Part shown: positions 8,128-15,048 of the stretch, piece after piece
How the letters are laid out: every line of letters begins with the position of its first letter
Position numbering within the stretch: the stretch's first letter is position 1
NCBI GenBank assembly: GCA_944331955.1
Contig: CALVIY010000012.1
Span: forward strand, 1 to 32,958
Source of the DNA: an uncultured Bacilli bacterium
GTDB lineage: Bacteria > Bacillota_I > Bacilli_A > RF39 > UBA660
Length of the DNA stretch: 32,958 bases
Reading direction: 5' to 3'
Made by a program: the position numbers and the translations under genes
Notes under the pieces: model-generated
Databases searched by the model: none
What the model was told of the DNA's origin: nothing
Seen by the model: the letters and a program-made list of their open reading frames with translations, nothing else

Positions 8128-8691
8128 ATGCAAAAAAAGGTTAATAAGAAAGGTTTTACCTTAATTGAATTACTTGCTGTTATTATAATTTTAGCAATTT
8201 TAATGACACTTGCTATTACAGCAATGTCTGGTTATATTAGAAATGCTAGAAAAGATACATTTATTACAACAGCACAACAATATGCAAATGCGGCGAGACT
8301 TAGCTTTATAAATGGTGAATATAATGCTACTCCTGGTCGTGGTCAATGTTTAGTTGTTCAAACATCTACAGTTGCCTTAGAAAGTGGTAGTACAGATAGT
8401 TCATTTGATCAACCATTTGATAAAAAAAATAGTTATATTGTAATACGTAATGTAACACAAACTTCTGCAACAGGTGCAGATGATGCTTATGAATATTATA
8501 TTCAAATGGCAGATCAACAAGGCAATGGTTTTGGACTAAAACAAGAAAATGATATCGAAAGAGAAGATGTAGTTCAAAATGATGCAGATGATGAAACAGA
8601 ATTCCAAACACCAACAAAAAATGGCACTTTGAAATTATATACTTCAGGTGGCCAAGATGGTACATGTACTGTTGTAGATATTATATCTTAA
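8128..8691 (+). CDS. Type IV prepilin-like protein, tandem copy 1
   Basis: A 187-residue prepilin-like protein. Prepilin leader MQKKVNKKG, cleavage before FTLIELLAV (mature E5 present), hydrophobic helix to about residue 31, then a soluble domain with two cysteines (GQCLVV and GTCTVV near the C-terminus) that could form the disulfide-bounded loop seen in many pilins. Ribosome site GGAGG at 8115-8119. The protein differs from copy 2 by a single residue (V5 versus N5). Its upstream region is unlike those of copies 2 and 3, whereas its 3' part and downstream spacer equal those of copy 2, so it is the founder of the left end of the array. Each copy carries its own promoter and terminator, implying high expression of a major subunit. 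Confidence 0.88.
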   Translation: MQKKVNKKGFTLIELLAVIIILAILMTLAITAMSGYIRNARKDTFITTAQQYANAARLSFINGEYNATPGRGQCLVVQTSTVALESGSTDSSFDQPFDKKNSYIVIRNVTQTSATGADDAYEYYIQMADQQGNGFGLKQENDIEREDVVQNDADDETEFQTPTKNGTLKLYTSGGQDGTCTVVDIIS

Positions 8692-8693
8692 TT

Positions 8694-8722
8694 AAGAACA
8701 GGAAGAGACTTGTTCTTTTTTT
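8694..8722 (+). terminator. Terminator of pilin copy 1
   Basis: Stem AAGAACAGG (8694-8702) with the complementary half at 8709-8717 (one G-U pair), followed by seven T residues (8716-8722). Confidence 0.75.
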
Positions 8723-8757
8723 CTTTACATCTTTTAACTTTTTAAAAGCAATTTAAA

Positions 8758-8786
8758 TTGACAGTTACAACAATATTTGCTATTAT
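8758..8786 (+). promoter_or_regulatory. Promoter of pilin copy 2
   Basis: TTGACA (8758-8763), exactly 17 nt, TATTAT (8781-8786) preceded by TGC: a near-consensus extended -10 sigma-A promoter. Confidence 0.8.
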
Positions 8787-8814
8787 TAAATAGTAAGATA
8801 TGGAGGTTTAAGAT

Positions 8815-9378
8815 ATGCAAAAGAAAAATAATAAGAAAGGTTTTACTTTAATCGAATTACTTGCTGTTATTATAATTTTAGCAATTTTAATGACACTTGC
8901 TATTACAGCAATGTCTGGTTATATTAGAAATGCTAGAAAAGATACATTTATTACAACAGCACAACAATATGCAAATGCGGCGAGACTTAGCTTTATAAAT
9001 GGTGAATATAATGCTACTCCTGGTCGTGGTCAATGTTTAGTTGTTCAAACATCTACAGTTGCCTTAGAAAGTGGTAGTACAGATAGTTCATTTGATCAAC
9101 CATTTGATAAAAAAAATAGTTATATTGTAATACGTAATGTAACACAAACTTCTGCAACAGGTGCAGATGATGCTTATGAATATTATATTCAAATGGCAGA
9201 TCAACAAGGCAATGGTTTTGGACTAAAACAAGAAAATGATATCGAAAGAGAAGATGTAGTTCAAAATGATGCAGATGATGAAACAGAATTCCAAACACCA
9301 ACAAAAAATGGCACTTTGAAATTATATACTTCAGGTGGCCAAGATGGTACATGTACTGTTGTAGATATTATATCTTAA
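8815..9378 (+). CDS. Type IV prepilin-like protein, tandem copy 2 (chimeric)
   Basis: A 187-residue prepilin with leader MQKKNNKKG, mature FTLIELLAV, hydrophobic helix and a two-cysteine head domain. Its promoter, ribosome site (GGAGG at 8802-8806) and first 13 codons are identical in DNA to copy 3, while everything after the shared core is identical to copy 1, including the terminator. It is therefore best read as the recombinant gene created when the array grew from two to three copies. The protein should be fully functional, being a mosaic of two intact ones. Expression signals are as strong as those of its neighbours. Confidence 0.88.
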   Translation: MQKKNNKKGFTLIELLAVIIILAILMTLAITAMSGYIRNARKDTFITTAQQYANAARLSFINGEYNATPGRGQCLVVQTSTVALESGSTDSSFDQPFDKKNSYIVIRNVTQTSATGADDAYEYYIQMADQQGNGFGLKQENDIEREDVVQNDADDETEFQTPTKNGTLKLYTSGGQDGTCTVVDIIS

Positions 9379-9380
9379 TT

Positions 9381-9409
9381 AAGAACAGGAAGAGACTTGT
9401 TCTTTTTTT
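9381..9409 (+). terminator. Terminator of pilin copy 2
   Basis: Exact duplicate of the copy 1 terminator, shifted by 687 bp. Confidence 0.75.
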
Positions 9410-9444
9410 CTTTACATCTTTTAACTTTTTAAAAGCAATTTAAA

Positions 9445-9473
9445 TTGACAGTTACAACAATATTTGCTATTAT
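9445..9473 (+). promoter_or_regulatory. Promoter of pilin copy 3
   Basis: Exact duplicate of the copy 2 promoter: TTGACA (9445-9450), 17 nt, TATTAT (9468-9473) with TG element. Confidence 0.8.
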
Positions 9474-9501
9474 TAAATAGTAAGATATGGAGGTTTAAGA
9501 T

Positions 9502-10065
9502 ATGCAAAAGAAAAATAATAAGAAAGGTTTTACTTTAATCGAATTACTTGCTGTTATTATAATTTTAGCAATTTTAATGACACTTGCTATTACAGCAATG
9601 TCTGGTTATATTAGAAATGCTAGAAAAGATACATTTATTACAACAGCACAACAATATGCAAATGCGGCGAGACTTAGCTTTATAAATGGTGAATATAATG
9701 CTACTCCTGGTCGTGGTCAATGTTTAGTTGTTCAAACATCTACAGTTGCCTTAGAAAGTGGTAGTACAGATAGTTCATTTGATCAACCATTTGATAAAAA
9801 AAATAGTTATATTGTAATACGTAATGTAACACAAACTTCTGCAACAGGTGCAGATGATGCTTATGAATATTATATTCAAATGGCAGATCAACAAGGCAAT
9901 GGTTTTGCATTAATGCAAGAGAATGATATCGAAAGAGAAGATGTTGTTCAAAACGATGCGGCTGATCAAACAGGCTTCCAAACACCTAAAAAGAGTAGTA
10001 AGTTAACACTATATAATTCTGGTGGATCTGATGGTACATGTACAGTAGTAGATGTTATATCTTAG
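9502..10065 (+). CDS. Type IV prepilin-like protein, tandem copy 3
   Basis: A 187-residue prepilin identical to copies 1 and 2 up to about residue 134. The last 53 residues then carry about a dozen substitutions (for example FALMQEN for FGLKQEN, TPKKSS for TPTKNG). Both cysteines, GQCLVV and GTCTVV, are kept. The DNA also diverges at silent sites in this C-terminal part, so it represents an older, independently evolving paralogue whose core has been homogenised with the others. The downstream terminator is unrelated to those of copies 1 and 2, marking the right end of the array. The variable C-terminal face suggests different surface properties of the assembled subunits. Confidence 0.88.
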   Translation: MQKKNNKKGFTLIELLAVIIILAILMTLAITAMSGYIRNARKDTFITTAQQYANAARLSFINGEYNATPGRGQCLVVQTSTVALESGSTDSSFDQPFDKKNSYIVIRNVTQTSATGADDAYEYYIQMADQQGNGFALMQENDIEREDVVQNDAADQTGFQTPKKSSKLTLYNSGGSDGTCTVVDVIS

Positions 10066-10169: not shown

Positions 10170-12485
10170 ATGGCAAAGTTACCTATTTTAATTGTTAATA
10201 CGGCTATACTTTTTCCTGGAATGGAATATAGGGGTGAGAGTGTAGACTATCTTGAACAAAATATAATTGATACAGTAGATAAGACTGATAGTAAAGAATT
10301 AGTTATAATCCATTCTATTGATAATATAAGTACAGATGATGTTACAGAATTTCCAAAAATAGGTCTTTTAGCAACCCTAACTTTAAAACTAAATATTCCA
10401 AACTCAAAGATGCGTTATATCTTTATTGGTTTAAAAAGAATAGAGATATCTTCTTACGAAGAAGAAAATGGTATTTATTATGCTAATTATAAAGAAATAA
10501 ATATTAATAAAGACAATCCTTTAGAAGAAGATAAATATTTAAATATGTTATATCGTAATTATGAGAAATATGTTAGAGAAATATCTACAGTTAGTAATGC
10601 TATGTTAGGAGAGATTTCTTCTATTAATAGTTTAGATAAACTAACAGATTTTATTGTTTCATTCTTAAATTTATCACCAGAAGTTAAAAAGAGTTATTTA
10701 TATGAATTAGATCCTATTAAAAGAGCGATTTCTTTAGTTAGTCAATTAAAAGAAGAAATTAATTTAGCGAAACTTGAAAAAGAAATAGAAGTTAAAGTTC
10801 ATAAGAAAATAGATGAAGATCAAAGAAGATATTATTTATCTGAGAAAATGAAAATAATATCTAATGAACTTGGTACTGTTAGTAGTAAAAGTATTATTAT
10901 TGAAAACTTTAATAAGAAATTAAAAAAACTTAAATGTTCTAATAAAGTAAGAAGTAAAATTAAAGAAGAAATTGCTCATTATAAATCTATTAATGAAAGT
11001 ACTCCAGAATCATCAATATTAAGAGAATATCTTGAATTAATGTTAAGTTTACCTTGGGATTATAAAACTCGTGATATAACAGATATTAAAGAAATAGAAA
11101 CTACTTTAAATAATAGTCATTATGGTCTTAGTAAAGTAAAGTCAAGAATTGTTGAATATATTGCTGTTAAACAGAATTCTCCTAAAGAAAAGAGTCCTAT
11201 TCTTTGTTTAATAGGACCTCCTGGGGTTGGTAAGACTTCTCTTGCTAAAACAATTGCTAAAGCCTTAAATCGCCGTCTTGTTAGTGTTTCTGTTGGAGGA
11301 GTTAATGATGAAGCGGAAATTGTAGGACATAGAAGAACTTATGTAGGGGCTTTACCTGGTAGAATAATTAGTGGTATTAGAAAGTGTGGTAGTTCTAATC
11401 CTGTCTTTATTATAGATGAGATTGATAAGATGACTAAGAACTTTAGGGGAGATCCTGCTAGTAGTCTTTTAGAAGTTTTAGATAAAGAACAAAATAGTAC
11501 TTTTTATGATCATTATTTAGAAGAAGAGTATGACTTATCTAATGTCTTGTTTATTGCTACTGCTAATTATGAAGACCAGATACCTCCTGAATTAAAAGAT
11601 AGATTGGAAATTATCTATTTAGATTCATATACAGAGTATGAAAAACTATCTATTGCTAAAAATTATTTAATACCAAGAGCTTTAGATGAACATGGATTAA
11701 CATCATTACAAGTTAATTTTACTGATGAAGCGATACTTGATATTATTAATTACTATACTAAAGAAGCAGGAGTTAGAAATTTAGAAAGATTAATTTCTAA
11801 AATACTTAGAAAGATAGTAAAAAGAGTTTTAACAGAAAGTGATGCTGTCTTTTATTCTATTACTAGTAATGATTTAGAAGAGTATTTAGATAGAAAAGTT
11901 TATACTAATAGAGAAAATAAAGAAACAAAACTAAAGGGTGTTGTTAATGGCCTTGCTTATACTCCTTATGGAGGTGATACTTTACCTATAGAAGTAACTT
12001 ATTATAAAGGAAACTCTAATTTACTTTTAACTGGTTCTTTAGGGGAAGTAATGCAAGAGTCTGCTAAAATAGCTTTAAGTTATATAAAATCTAATGCTAA
12101 AAAGTTTAATCTTTCTAAAGATATCTTTAATTGTGATATTCATATTCATGTACCAGAGGGTGCTATTCCTAAAGAAGGTCCAAGTGCAGGGATTGCCCTT
12201 ACTACGGCTTTACTTAGCGCTTTTACTAATACTAAGATATCTACACGTATTGCAATGACAGGTGAGATTACTTTACAAGGAGATATTTTAGAAATAGGTG
12301 GAGTGAAAGAAAAAGTATTAGGAGCATATAGAGAAGGAATTAAGACTATTTATTTACCTTTAAAAAATAAAGATGATGTTAAAGATATACCTCTTGAAAT
12401 AAGAGAAAAACTAGAGTTTATTTATGTATCTAATTATAATGAACTATATGAAAATTTATTTTGTAAAGAGGAAGTAATGTGTTAG
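10170..12485 (+). CDS. lon: ATP-dependent protease LonA
   Basis: Hexameric AAA+ serine protease for quality control and regulatory proteolysis in the cytoplasm. Domain order: N-terminal LonN substrate domain (about 1-190), coiled coil, AAA+ module with Walker A GPPGVGKT (349-356) and Walker B VFIIDEIDK, then the peptidase domain with catalytic S672 in KEGPSAG and K715 in GGVKEK. Length 771 is normal for LonA. Ribosome site GGGGAGG before the ATG. The 3' end overlaps the next gene's GTG by 7 nt. The N-terminal domain is less conserved than the rest but has the usual start (LPILIVNTAILFPGM). Confidence 0.97.
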   Translation: MAKLPILIVNTAILFPGMEYRGESVDYLEQNIIDTVDKTDSKELVIIHSIDNISTDDVTEFPKIGLLATLTLKLNIPNSKMRYIFIGLKRIEISSYEEENGIYYANYKEININKDNPLEEDKYLNMLYRNYEKYVREISTVSNAMLGEISSINSLDKLTDFIVSFLNLSPEVKKSYLYELDPIKRAISLVSQLKEEINLAKLEKEIEVKVHKKIDEDQRRYYLSEKMKIISNELGTVSSKSIIIENFNKKLKKLKCSNKVRSKIKEEIAHYKSINESTPESSILREYLELMLSLPWDYKTRDITDIKEIETTLNNSHYGLSKVKSRIVEYIAVKQNSPKEKSPILCLIGPPGVGKTSLAKTIAKALNRRLVSVSVGGVNDEAEIVGHRRTYVGALPGRIISGIRKCGSSNPVFIIDEIDKMTKNFRGDPASSLLEVLDKEQNSTFYDHYLEEEYDLSNVLFIATANYEDQIPPELKDRLEIIYLDSYTEYEKLSIAKNYLIPRALDEHGLTSLQVNFTDEAILDIINYYTKEAGVRNLERLISKILRKIVKRVLTESDAVFYSITSNDLEEYLDRKVYTNRENKETKLKGVVNGLAYTPYGGDTLPIEVTYYKGNSNLLLTGSLGEVMQESAKIALSYIKSNAKKFNLSKDIFNCDIHIHVPEGAIPKEGPSAGIALTTALLSAFTNTKISTRIAMTGEITLQGDILEIGGVKEKVLGAYREGIKTIYLPLKNKDDVKDIPLEIREKLEFIYVSNYNELYENLFCKEEVMC

Positions 12486-13075
12486 ATGAAAAAATAGAGG
12501 CTCTTAATGTTAAATCTTCTCTAGCATACTTAGATTATTTTGAAAGTTTAAAATCTTTTGATTATAATACTTTAATAAATGGTGTTAATTATCTATTAGA
12601 TTTAGAAAAAGAGTTTTTCTTTTTAGATGATGTGTTCTTAGATTCTGTTATTAAAATAATTACTATATATAATGATAAATCTACTTTAAAAAAATTACTT
12701 AATATTAAAAGTACTGATATTTTAATAAAAGAACAAGAAGTAGATAAATATTTAATAAAAGAATATTTTAAAAGAGGCTTTATCTTTGACTATGTAGGTT
12801 ATTTAGATTTATTAGAACTTGATGATTTATTAATAAATGAAGAAGATTATAGTGAACTTATAGATAGCCCTTATATCATATATTCTATTAACTATTTAAA
12901 AAGAGAATTTGCAGATTATTATCTTGAAAATAGAAAAGCAGATAATTATTTATTATCAATATTAAAACTATTAAGTAAAGAAAAATATAGTGATGTAGAT
13001 ACTATTAATAAAACTTTAAAATTATTTAAAAAAAGAGAAGATGGGATTATTACTTTTAGAAGTAAAATAAAGTAA
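12479..13075 (+). CDS. Hypothetical protein, coupled to lon
   Basis: I do not recognise this 198-residue protein. It is soluble, without signal peptide or membrane segment, rich in L, K, D, I and Y, and probably all-helical, with a repeating leucine/aspartate pattern (YLDLLELDDLLINEEDYSELI). It begins with GTG inside the end of lon (7-nt overlap) and has AAAGAGGA before it, so it is translated from the lon message; the only nearby ATG (12486) is out of frame. In Bacillus the gene after lonA is the GTPase gene ysxC, but there is no P-loop here. Its coding end forms half of a terminator hairpin. A Lon-linked or purely lineage-specific function is equally possible. Confidence 0.7.
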   Translation: MLDEKIEALNVKSSLAYLDYFESLKSFDYNTLINGVNYLLDLEKEFFFLDDVFLDSVIKIITIYNDKSTLKKLLNIKSTDILIKEQEVDKYLIKEYFKRGFIFDYVGYLDLLELDDLLINEEDYSELIDSPYIIYSINYLKREFADYYLENRKADNYLLSILKLLSKEKYSDVDTINKTLKLFKKREDGIITFRSKIK

Positions 13076-13087
13076 TAATCCTTTTTT
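13044..13087 (+). terminator. Terminator of the lon operon, inside the coding end
   Basis: Perfect 13-bp stem GGATTATTACTTT (13044-13056) with its complement at 13069-13081, 12-nt loop, then TTTTTT (13082-13087). The 5' arm and the stop codon (13073-13075) of the upstream gene are part of the hairpin. Confidence 0.85.
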
Positions 13088-13122
13088 ATTATCATATATT
13101 TTAACTAAGGAAAGGAGATAAT

Positions 13123-13944
13123 ATGAAACAGATAATAACTTTAGAAAAAGAAATAGCTTTTAAAACTATGTTGGGAGATATTACTAGTATTTCCTTAGAA
13201 CCTGATTTAGCGTTCATTAATGATAGTGAAATAGAGGGTAATTTAATAATTAGTGGTACTTATAAAATGACAGAAGCATCTACTTTAGAAGAAAAATTTA
13301 ATTATAAAGTACCAGTTGAAATTATGCTTACAACTTCATTATTAGAAGATAAAAGAAAAGTAGATGTTAATAACTTTACTTATGAAATTGTTAATGAAGA
13401 AGCTTTAGCGATTAAAGTAGAACTCTTAATAGAAGGATTAGAGAAAATAGAAATAGAAGAAGATGATAACATGGATTTAAAAGAAGAAGTTAGAAATTCA
13501 GATAGTGAAGAAGAGGAAATAGAAGTGTTAACTACTAATGATTTAGATGATACTACTGAAGAAGTAACTACAAATGTTATGAGTGATGATATTAAAGAAG
13601 AGATATCTACAGTTATGAATGATGATGTTAAAGAAGAAGTATCTACAGTTATGAATGAAGAAGTTAAAGAAGAATTACCTACTTTAAAAGAGGAAGCAGA
13701 GACTATTAAAGAAGATACTAATAATAAAAAAGTTATGGATTCTATCTTTTCTGCTTTTGCTAATACAGATGAGACATATGCAACATATTCAGTTTATATT
13801 TTAAGAGAAGATGATAATTTAGAAGAAGTAATAACTAAATATAAAACTAATAGAGAAGCTTTAGCAGAATATAATGATTTAGATAATTTAAAAGTAGGTT
13901 CTAAGTTAATAATTCCTACTGCTATAGAATCTAATGATAAATAA
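13123..13944 (+). CDS. SpoVID-like LysM protein
   Basis: A 273-residue protein in three parts: an N-terminal beta-rich domain (about 1-115), a very acidic linker (about 115-210) and a C-terminal LysM domain (about 221-266, ending VGSKLIIPT) that would bind glycan. The N-terminal segment (SISLEPDLAFINDSEIEGNL, later VDVNNFTYEI) resembles the N-domain of the Bacillus spore coat morphogenetic protein SpoVID, which also ends in LysM; this rests on remembered family features and was not searched. There is no signal peptide, consistent with a mother-cell protein such as SpoVID but odd for a wall binder. The linker holds 36-nt tandem repeats. Ribosome site AAAGGAG. It overlaps the next gene by 11 nt. 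An ordinary intracellular LysM protein of other function is the alternative. Confidence 0.6.
   Translation: MKQIITLEKEIAFKTMLGDITSISLEPDLAFINDSEIEGNLIISGTYKMTEASTLEEKFNYKVPVEIMLTTSLLEDKRKVDVNNFTYEIVNEEALAIKVELLIEGLEKIEIEEDDNMDLKEEVRNSDSEEEEIEVLTTNDLDDTTEEVTTNVMSDDIKEEISTVMNDDVKEEVSTVMNEEVKEELPTLKEEAETIKEDTNNKKVMDSIFSAFANTDETYATYSVYILREDDNLEEVITKYKTNREALAEYNDLDNLKVGSKLIIPTAIESNDK
13585..13692 (+). repeat. 36-nt tandem repeats in the acidic linker
   Basis: Three in-frame units starting at 13585, 13621 and 13657 encode DDIKEEISTVMN, DDVKEEVSTVMN and the more diverged EEVKEELPTLKE. The first two units are nearly identical in DNA. This is a plausible site of repeat-number variation. Confidence 0.85.
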
Positions 13945-14788
13945 ATTTACTTATTTAAAAAATGTTAAAGTAATAGATGATGCGGATCATAAAATATTAA
14001 TTAAAAATAAGAAAAAATATGATATAGATAAAATATATAAATACTTAGATGATCATAATATTAATAACTATTTAAAGCCTTTTAAAATAACAGATAGAAA
14101 TTTATATTTTGATTATTTAGATAAAAAAAGATTAGATAATGATGAAGTTGCAAAACATTTAATCTTTGCTTTAGCAGATTTAGAGAATAAAACTACTATT
14201 TATAGAGAAATAGATAAAGATAAATTAAAAGAAGAATATGATAACTTTAATATGAAAATAAACTATTTAGAAGAGTATTATTTTACTTTACAAGATATGA
14301 TTGAAAATAAAGTATATCCATCACCTTCTGAATATCTTTTTATAAGAAATGTCTCAATTATATATAGTGCTTTAAATTATTCTAAACATTTATTAGAAAA
14401 ATGGTATAAAATAATGAAAGAGAAAACTAGAGAAAGATATGTATATGCTCATGGTAAATGTGAACTTAGTCATTTTATTACTTCTAGTAATGATTATTTT
14501 ATTAGTTTAGAGAATGCTCATATTGCAAGAGTACCAACTGATTTTATATACTTTTTTAAAAGGAATTATAAAGATACTGATATGATAAGTAATTTTAAAC
14601 TATATCAACATAGGTATCATTATAAAGAAGAAGAATATCTATATTTATTAATAAATTTAACTATACCAGAAAAGATTAATATATATCCTTCTAGTTTAAA
14701 TAAATGTATAGAATTAAGTGAGTTTTTTGATAGATTAAAATTTACTAGTGAATTTATATCAAAAAATGAGAAAGATAAGAAGCACTAA
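13934..14788 (+). CDS. YsxE/CotS-like kinase-fold protein (tentative)
   Basis: A 284-residue soluble protein whose layout recalls the CotS/YutH/YsxE group of kinase-fold spore coat proteins. A helical middle region (NYLEEYYFTLQDMI, SALNYSKHLLEKWY) is followed by a catalytic-loop-like segment YVYAHGKCELSHFI and then YFISLENAHIARVPTDF, which occupy the places of the HGDLHxxN and IDFD(R/K)A motifs of aminoglycoside-kinase folds. The usual D of HGD is K here and the metal-binding D is E, so it would be a pseudokinase. It starts inside the end of the SpoVID-like gene. In Bacillus subtilis spoVID is followed by ysxE, not far from lonA, and this parallel supports the call. The match is from memory of motifs, so confidence is moderate. 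Confidence 0.5.
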   Translation: MINKFTYLKNVKVIDDADHKILIKNKKKYDIDKIYKYLDDHNINNYLKPFKITDRNLYFDYLDKKRLDNDEVAKHLIFALADLENKTTIYREIDKDKLKEEYDNFNMKINYLEEYYFTLQDMIENKVYPSPSEYLFIRNVSIIYSALNYSKHLLEKWYKIMKEKTRERYVYAHGKCELSHFITSSNDYFISLENAHIARVPTDFIYFFKRNYKDTDMISNFKLYQHRYHYKEEEYLYLLINLTIPEKINIYPSSLNKCIELSEFFDRLKFTSEFISKNEKDKKH

Positions 14789-14980
14789 GAAAAGAATTAA
14801 TTCTATTAATAATAGTAAAGCATGAATTCTTGTTACTAAAAATAAAAGTAATATCGCTTGATAAAAGATTATAACTAAGAGTGCTAGAAGACTACCTAAA
14901 TAGAAGATACTGTTTCTTCTTTTTTGTTTGCAATAATTGCATCTACAGAAAGGACTATGTTTGTTTCCTTTAAATTTCAT
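14759..14980 (-). CDS. Small membrane protein with CxCxxC motif
   Basis: A 73-residue protein on the minus strand, MKFKGNKHSPFCRCNYCKQK..., with a short cysteine motif (CRCNYC, possible metal binding) followed by two hydrophobic segments (about 27-47 and 50-72). I chose the ATG at 14980 rather than the in-frame GTG at 14989 because AGGTGA then lies 5 nt upstream. Its 3' end overlaps the convergent YsxE-like gene by 30 nt. Function is unknown. The good ribosome site and membrane-protein composition favour a real gene over a shadow frame, but no strong promoter was found. Confidence 0.55.
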   Translation of the reverse strand: MKFKGNKHSPFCRCNYCKQKRRNSIFYLGSLLALLVIIFYQAILLLFLVTRIHALLLLIELILFLVLLIFLIF

Positions 14981-15018
14981 GCTTATCACCTATAATAGTT
15001 TATGAAATAATAAAAAAG

Positions 15019-15048
15019 TTGTTAAAAGACTAAAAATAATGATAGAAT
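15019..15048 (+). promoter_or_regulatory. Putative promoter of the hypothetical-dnaI pair
   Basis: TTGTTA (15019-15024), 18-nt spacer, TAGAAT (15043-15048), ending 20 nt before the chosen ATG. Confidence 0.5.

Follow-up and report, generated by a model that had tools for sequence, protein, structure and literature searches.

Does an uncultured gut lineage with a very small genome keep a spore-coat assembly module, and if so, to what end? The question is raised by two overlapping genes on a contig (C12) of 32,958 nucleotides, the whole of which was analyzed and is hereafter called the window. It belongs to a Bacilli bacterium of RF39, an uncultured gut order over whose sporulation published work disagrees (PMC10868615 versus PMC12536801; publications are cited throughout for the excerpts available). 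The surrounding genome is a draft of 1,505,173 bases in 95 contigs (94% complete). An earlier note had proposed, from the sequence of the window, that the two genes encode a LysM protein with a SpoVID-like N-domain and a CotS/YsxE-like pseudokinase, and that the lineage either still forms spores or keeps the module for another envelope task. The features of the locus are collected in Table 1.

Table 1. Features at the spoVID-ysxE locus (positions in the window).
Feature	Position	Strand	Basis or remark
lon, ATP-dependent protease, upstream neighbour	10170..12485	+	identity read from sequence
198-aa ORF between lon and spoVID, genus-restricted	12479..13075	+	no Pfam or NCBIfam match
Predicted intrinsic terminator of the preceding genes (hairpin and T-run)	13038..13087	+	MFE -16.5 kcal/mol for a 60-nt stretch
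Putative sigma-E-type promoter of spoVID	13073..13100	+	sequence pattern; consensus as we take it to be
SpoVID homologue, 273 aa	13123..13944	+	profile searches, structure model, relatives' alignment
Layout of the SpoVID homologue			SPOCS_spoVID-N domain 1-106, acidic disordered linker 107-199, segment 200-220, LysM 221-266
YsxE homologue, 284 aa, CotS/CotI-type kinase fold	13934..14788	+	HGK replaces HGD; profile searches, model, alignment
Order-specific small membrane protein, convergent with ysxE	14759..14980	-	73 aa from ATG 14980; start given by the ORF tool, GTG 14989
Putative sigma-K-type promoter of the small gene	14990..15022	-	sequence pattern; consensus as we take it to be

The two genes lie on the same strand and share 11 bp, in agreement with the overlap described earlier, and the usual spoVID/ysxE overlap in 80 named loci is 8 to 17 bp. 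SpoVID and YsxE stand side by side in all 86 loci of a set selected by a match to either protein, which includes several loci from one genome and some with a shortened partner (e.g., L016, L038, L092). Among 80 named-record loci selected by YsxE alone, SpoVID was present in 78. The pairing is not due to chance. Gene lon lies upstream of spoVID in 51 of the 80 named loci, the remainder including loci cut by contig or locus ends, and lonA ... spoVID-ysxE is presumably the gene order in B. subtilis. The pair had been placed three genes from lon, which was loose, as only one ORF separates lon and spoVID. This ORF overlaps lon by 7 bp and has homologues in 6 of the 86 loci, all from genomes of the same genus, and in 0 of the 80 named loci. 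Rfam and tRNA scans across the window were empty. Further upstream, a type IV pilin-like gene of 187 aa is present in three tandem copies (8128-10065, unit of 687 bp) with 93-99% DNA identity and two identical spacers.

The first protein has the SpoVID-like N-domain and the LysM domain that were proposed for it. Residues 5-106 match the Pfam model SPOCS_spoVID-N (PF20918) with 30.9 bits, above the cut-off of 27.1, and residues 225-265 match LysM (PF01476; E = 8.9e-4) with 19.6 bits, slightly under the cut-off of 20.9, while a LysM fold is present in the predicted model (4uz2, Z 6.4, rmsd 1.7, 46 aligned). Its relatives match PF20918 in 50 of 63 cases and LysM in 58 of 63 (E<=0.1). In the model, an N-domain of six strands, predicted with confidence, is followed by an acidic linker that is disordered (37 D/E versus 8 K/R within 93 residues) and by the LysM domain. 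The N-domain and LysM are highly conserved, residues 200-220 moderately so and the linker poorly. When the N-domain model was compared with solved structures, no clear relative emerged; small heat-shock proteins came out on top (Z up to 6.4), a likeness that may reflect a common arrangement only. PDB sequence searches with each single protein of the pair returned nothing relevant. Against the NCBI equivalog model TIGR02907, the protein scored 27.1 bits (cut-off 169.85), and the only relative tried reached 40 bits.

As for the second protein, residues 64-248 match TIGR02904 (spore_ysxE) with E = 1.4e-23 and 83.6 bits, and the same model was matched by 73 of 73 YsxE relatives. The predicted model (pLDDT 93.4) has 4pdy as its closest structure by VIA-align (Z 19.9, rmsd 3.8, 269 aligned); YtaA/CotI of B. 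subtilis (2q83) gave Z 17.5 (rmsd 4.6, 261 aligned) and the next row Z 14.0. Both the profile match and the fold thus uphold the CotS/YsxE-like identity. The equivalog cut-off of TIGR02904 (263.55 bits) is missed here, and no genome exceeds it either in the order (0 of 193) or in the class-level sample (0 of 395); hence, our alignment contains no Bacillus-type YsxE. Since neither NCBI equivalog cut-off is reached, we refrain from using the NCBI names and describe the proteins as divergent SpoVID and YsxE homologues.

The catalytic Asp of the HGD motif is replaced in 67 of 67 YsxE sequences from the order, by N in 50 and by K in 9, with K found in the genus studied here and N in most of the order. 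The Asn that follows this Asp is replaced in 65 of 67. In another family of the same class, f11, all sequences (6 of 6) retain both residues. An active CotS-type kinase was considered and rejected on account of these two replacements. Because the Asp is replaced throughout the order, the alignment supports the prediction of a pseudokinase, as first suggested. Pseudokinase status has been predicted for five bacterial spore kinases that lost this Asp; YsxE is a keyword of that study, which describes its binding site as very poorly conserved and gives spoVID-ysxE as an operon (PMC2860764). Transposon insertion in ysxE (ysxE::Tn) of B. anthracis was reported to cause a strong sporulation defect (PMC12700454).

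Upstream of spoVID, promoter-like boxes consist of a -35 TAATAAT (13073-13079), a spacer of 13 nt and a -10 CATATATT (13093-13100), and the -35 box sits in the 3' arm of the terminator hairpin. The typing of this putative promoter uses letters that we take to be the sigma-E consensus. The two-part pattern ATA-N14..18-CATANNNT was found within 110 nt upstream of 74 of 133 spoVID genes and 26 of 41 spoIVA genes versus 35 of 620 other ORFs of the named loci, and a T-run lies at most 4 nt from the box in 58 of 133 spoVID versus 34 of 620 other upstreams; these sequences are related, and the counts are not independent tests. The 133 spoVID upstreams are distinct sequences with enough upstream DNA, with seven family f11 loci left out, and the spoIVA set comprises all 41 sequences. 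A sigma-A-like TTG-N17..20-TATAAT precedes 1 of 133 spoVID and 0 of 41 spoIVA genes versus 54 of 620 other ORFs. The two-part pattern is absent from 59 of the 133 spoVID upstreams, and the CATANNNT box is absent upstream of spoIVA in the genome studied here. A pattern-free motif search recovered the same hairpin-T-run-CAT block with a score of 1432, versus 804-821 for shuffles and 910 for other ORFs. Sigma-E drives spoVID, spoIVA and cotE in B. subtilis (PMC517825).

The same genome encodes Spo0A (284 bits, equivalog cut-off 200), SigE adjoining SpoIIGA, SigK-like, SigF-like and SigG-like factors, and a full-length SpoIVA (686 bits, equivalog cut-off 459.9), that is, all the regulators and the coat protein that the earlier note had named for a search. 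SigF and SigG were assigned by best match only, the equivalog scores of SigE, SigF, SigG and SigK are under cut-off, and SigK passes one subfamily model. The SigG-like gene is cut by a contig end and is followed by YlmC/YmxH and YunB. Also encoded are CotE (E = 2.2e-42), one alpha/beta-type small acid-soluble protein (SASP; E = 8.4e-19), and SpoVAC, SpoVAD and SpoVAE, whose scores are slightly under the equivalog cut-offs (160.3/164, 393.5/411.8 and 128.1/131.1) and over those of Pfam. SpoVK, a part of the B. subtilis checkpoint, was not found in this genome, and the search for SafA gave LysM matches only, none over cut-off, with a model that also matches 10 of 14 control genomes. Of the two possibilities set out at the start, spores are thus favoured over another envelope task, because Spo0A, SigE with SpoIIGA, the SigF/G/K-like factors, SpoIVA, CotE, SpoVAC-AD-AE, YunB and the SASP are encoded in one and the same 1.5-Mb genome.

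Three further genes were observed during these searches. A YutH-like spore kinase homologue (L075:3699-4610, G000:C59) is encoded on the contig that begins within SigG, where YunB precedes it by four ORFs. An extra SigK/SigE-like sigma factor (L071:1120-1827, G000:C17) exists besides the clear SigE and SigK, and a YjcZ-like tiny membrane sporulation protein (L077:7679-7906, minus strand) scores slightly over the NCBIfam cut-off.

We then looked at 193 genomes of the order (83 genera, about 0.6-1.9 Mb). YsxE was found in 171, with no internal stop among the matches listed, SpoIVA in 175 (172 over cut-off), SpoVID-N, for which the model is weak, in 127 (97 over cut-off), Spo0A in 183 and alpha/beta-type SASP in 111, including L236, L237 and the genome studied here. 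A SpoVK-like ATPase below the equivalog cut-off occurs in 14 of the 193, several frames being about 490-540 aa long (L186, L187). In the class-level sample, YsxE was present in 94 of 395 genomes, approximately 54 of these outside the order. Named relatives were mostly metagenome-assembled genomes (uncultured Bacilli, Tenericutes, Bacillales), and include Candidatus Faecisoma merdavium and Candidatus Pelethosoma merdigallinarum. Candidatus Faecisoma (L137), which has been assigned to RF39 (PMC8035907), nests inside the sequences of the order in the YsxE tree, a single gene tree, which agrees with RF39 as the order.

Within this order, loss of one coat gene tends to accompany loss of the others, although the co-loss is partial. 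SpoIVA was absent or sub-cut-off in 12 of 22 YsxE-lacking versus 9 of 171 YsxE-carrying genomes (Fisher 3e-8) and Spo0A absent or divergent in 11 of 22 versus 7 of 171 (Fisher 6e-8), P values that are a guide only because the genomes are related and incomplete, the "weak" Spo0A class was set post hoc, with E-values known, and two of the 22 genomes without YsxE were identified by elimination. Strict absence of Spo0A (3 of 22 versus 7 of 171) is not significant (Fisher 0.09). Ten YsxE-lacking genomes retain SpoIVA over cut-off, and it is absent or sub-cut-off in nine that carry YsxE. The eight genomes with a weak Spo0A (G001, G008, G024, G045, G049, G060, G090, G191) all lack SpoIVA and YsxE, and may represent non-sporulating branches whose Spo0A-like regulator is divergent.

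These eight genomes suggest that loss is in progress inside the order, and one could therefore see the pair as vestigial, a decaying remnant that builds no working coat in a lineage losing sporulation. Genome reduction is general in the order, and some YsxE copies are shortened (117 aa in L038, 212 aa in L092). Yet YsxE persists in most genomes of the order, free of internal stops among the matches listed, the SpoIVA of the genome studied here is full length at 686 bits, and the promoter-like boxes as well as the overlapping gene order are kept across many genera, which makes decay an improbable explanation. It is less probable still that a non-sporulating lineage keeps the module for some vegetative task in its envelope. 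Such a role would suit the binding of LysM to peptidoglycan-type glycans, the small genomes of an uncultured lineage and the verdict of SpoMAG, which calls RF39 non-sporulating (PMC12536801). We rejected it in view of the sigma cascade, SpoIIGA, SpoIVA, CotE, the SpoVA proteins and the SASP encoded in the same genome, the tendency of the pair to vanish together with SpoIVA and a normal Spo0A, and the rarity of the sigma-A-like box upstream of spoVID in comparison with other ORFs.

A different doubt concerns the identity of the first protein, which could be a clostridial SipL-type protein rather than a SpoVID homologue. SipL ends in LysM and binds SpoIVA. It is another SPOCS plus LysM protein (PMC10659427), but the RF39 protein has a single N-terminal domain, which matches SPOCS_spoVID-N, with no match to the DUF3794/SipL model at E up to 1. 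Moreover, it is paired with YsxE, and ysxE and spoVID were described in bacilli, not in clostridia (PMC3533761). Membership in the SipL group was rejected on the SpoVID-N match, the unmatched SipL model and the YsxE partner, and we regard it as the least credible of the three alternatives. The pair is almost certainly orthologous to the spoVID-ysxE of Bacillus. We consider it highly likely that it represents divergent homologues of these spore-coat genes, kept by a reduced-genome RF39 lineage within a retained sporulation programme. The host lineage very probably still makes spores, as judged here from its genes.

The small gene that converges with ysxE has homologues in 74 of the 80 named loci and in 35 of 395 class genomes, all within the order. 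Of the order genomes, 34 of 40 with YsxE carry the small gene versus 1 of 14 without YsxE, and in three genomes (G025, G039, G046) it lies on a different contig from ysxE, which indicates a gene in its own right. Differences at codon positions 1, 2 and 3 amount to 34, 11 and 56%, as expected of coding DNA, and a Pfam and NCBIfam search with the small protein gave no convincing family. The -10 box CATAAACTA (15004-14996) immediately precedes the ribosome-binding site, and an AC lies 16 nt upstream of the box (about 15022-15021), a putative promoter typed by what we take to be the sigma-K layout. One set for the small gene had 97 sequences anchored versus 103 upstreams. [CA]ATANNNTA precedes the small gene in 89 of 101 cases versus 121 of 620 other ORFs, and the longer C-N16-[CA]ATANNNTA in 64 of 101 versus 18 of 620. 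It seems rather likely that RF39 has supplemented the spoVID-ysxE locus with a late coat or spore-envelope component of its own, namely a two-helix membrane protein that measures about 58 aa (73 aa in the genus studied here), is so far restricted to the order and has a sigma-K-type promoter. RF39 would then be one of the endospore formers with the smallest genomes, and its coat-assembly core (SpoVID, SpoIVA, CotE, YutH-like, SASP) a minimal one.

The working that we infer, with all its interactions, its timing and spore formation itself, would be as follows. After asymmetric division, mother-cell sigma-E would transcribe spoVID-ysxE from a promoter inside the terminator of the preceding genes. 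At the forespore surface, SpoVID would dock on polymerised SpoIVA and connect it with CotE and later coat proteins, with the SPOCS domain as assembly module, the acidic linker as spacer and the C-terminal LysM region as the counterpart of the part that senses SpoIVA and lipid II in B. subtilis. YsxE would ride with SpoVID as a catalytically dead, kinase-fold structural coat protein, and the convergently encoded small membrane protein would be added late under sigma-K.

New here are the occurrence of the pair in a genome this small, the compactness of its promoter, the SASP that has been retained and, newest of all, the order-specific small gene. RF39 has been predicted to be able to form spores with a different phenotype (PMC10868615). 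That study, whose main text does not name spoVID, ysxE or spoIVA, reports that both small acid-soluble proteins and coat proteins were lost in its Erysipelotrichales reference and ancestral nodes. SpoMAG assigned RF39 genomes a sporulation probability of 0% (PMC12536801); this was the only publication we found that names SpoVID together with RF39. The coat core and SASP described here are missed or not named in the available excerpts of both papers. SpoMAG leans on 16 genes, one of which is spoVID (PMC12536801), so that genes too divergent to reach annotation cut-offs could account for some of the conflict over RF39 sporulation. Cultivable spore-formers have been put above 2300 kb (2.3 Mb; PMC3533761), and the far smaller genomes of the order would thus be a test bed for a minimal coat. 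If the reading proposed here is true, ethanol- or heat-based spore selection would be a rational route to culturing RF39.

Among known systems, the RF39 SpoVID homologue resembles SipL (DUF3794) of Clostridioides difficile, a SpoIVA-binding coat protein, in combining SPOCS with a C-terminal LysM, and is unlike it in having no SipL-model match and in its pairing with YsxE. The comparison with SipL otherwise draws on general background and PMC10659427. B. subtilis SpoVID, which senses SpoIVA, lipid II and SpoVK through its LysM-containing C-terminal part, is at least 575 aa long by the residue numbering in the same paper (PMC10659427), whereas the RF39 protein has 273 aa, scores far below the TIGR02907 cut-off and comes from a genome in which SpoVK was not found. 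The two proteins share a single N-terminal SPOCS_spoVID-N domain, a long linker and a C-terminal LysM, and in RF39, as in B. subtilis, the gene overlaps ysxE, with SpoIVA and CotE encoded in the same genome. The RF39 YsxE differs from the YsxE of TIGR02904 in its low score and in its catalytic Asp, changed to K in the genus and mostly to N in the order, and from the homologues in family f11 of the same class, which retain HGD and the Asn. It is like the YsxE/bacterial spore kinase family (with CotS, YutH and YtaA/CotI as sisters) in its predicted fold, nearest to 4pdy and YtaA, and like YsxE itself in being a predicted pseudokinase whose gene holds the same operon position after spoVID.
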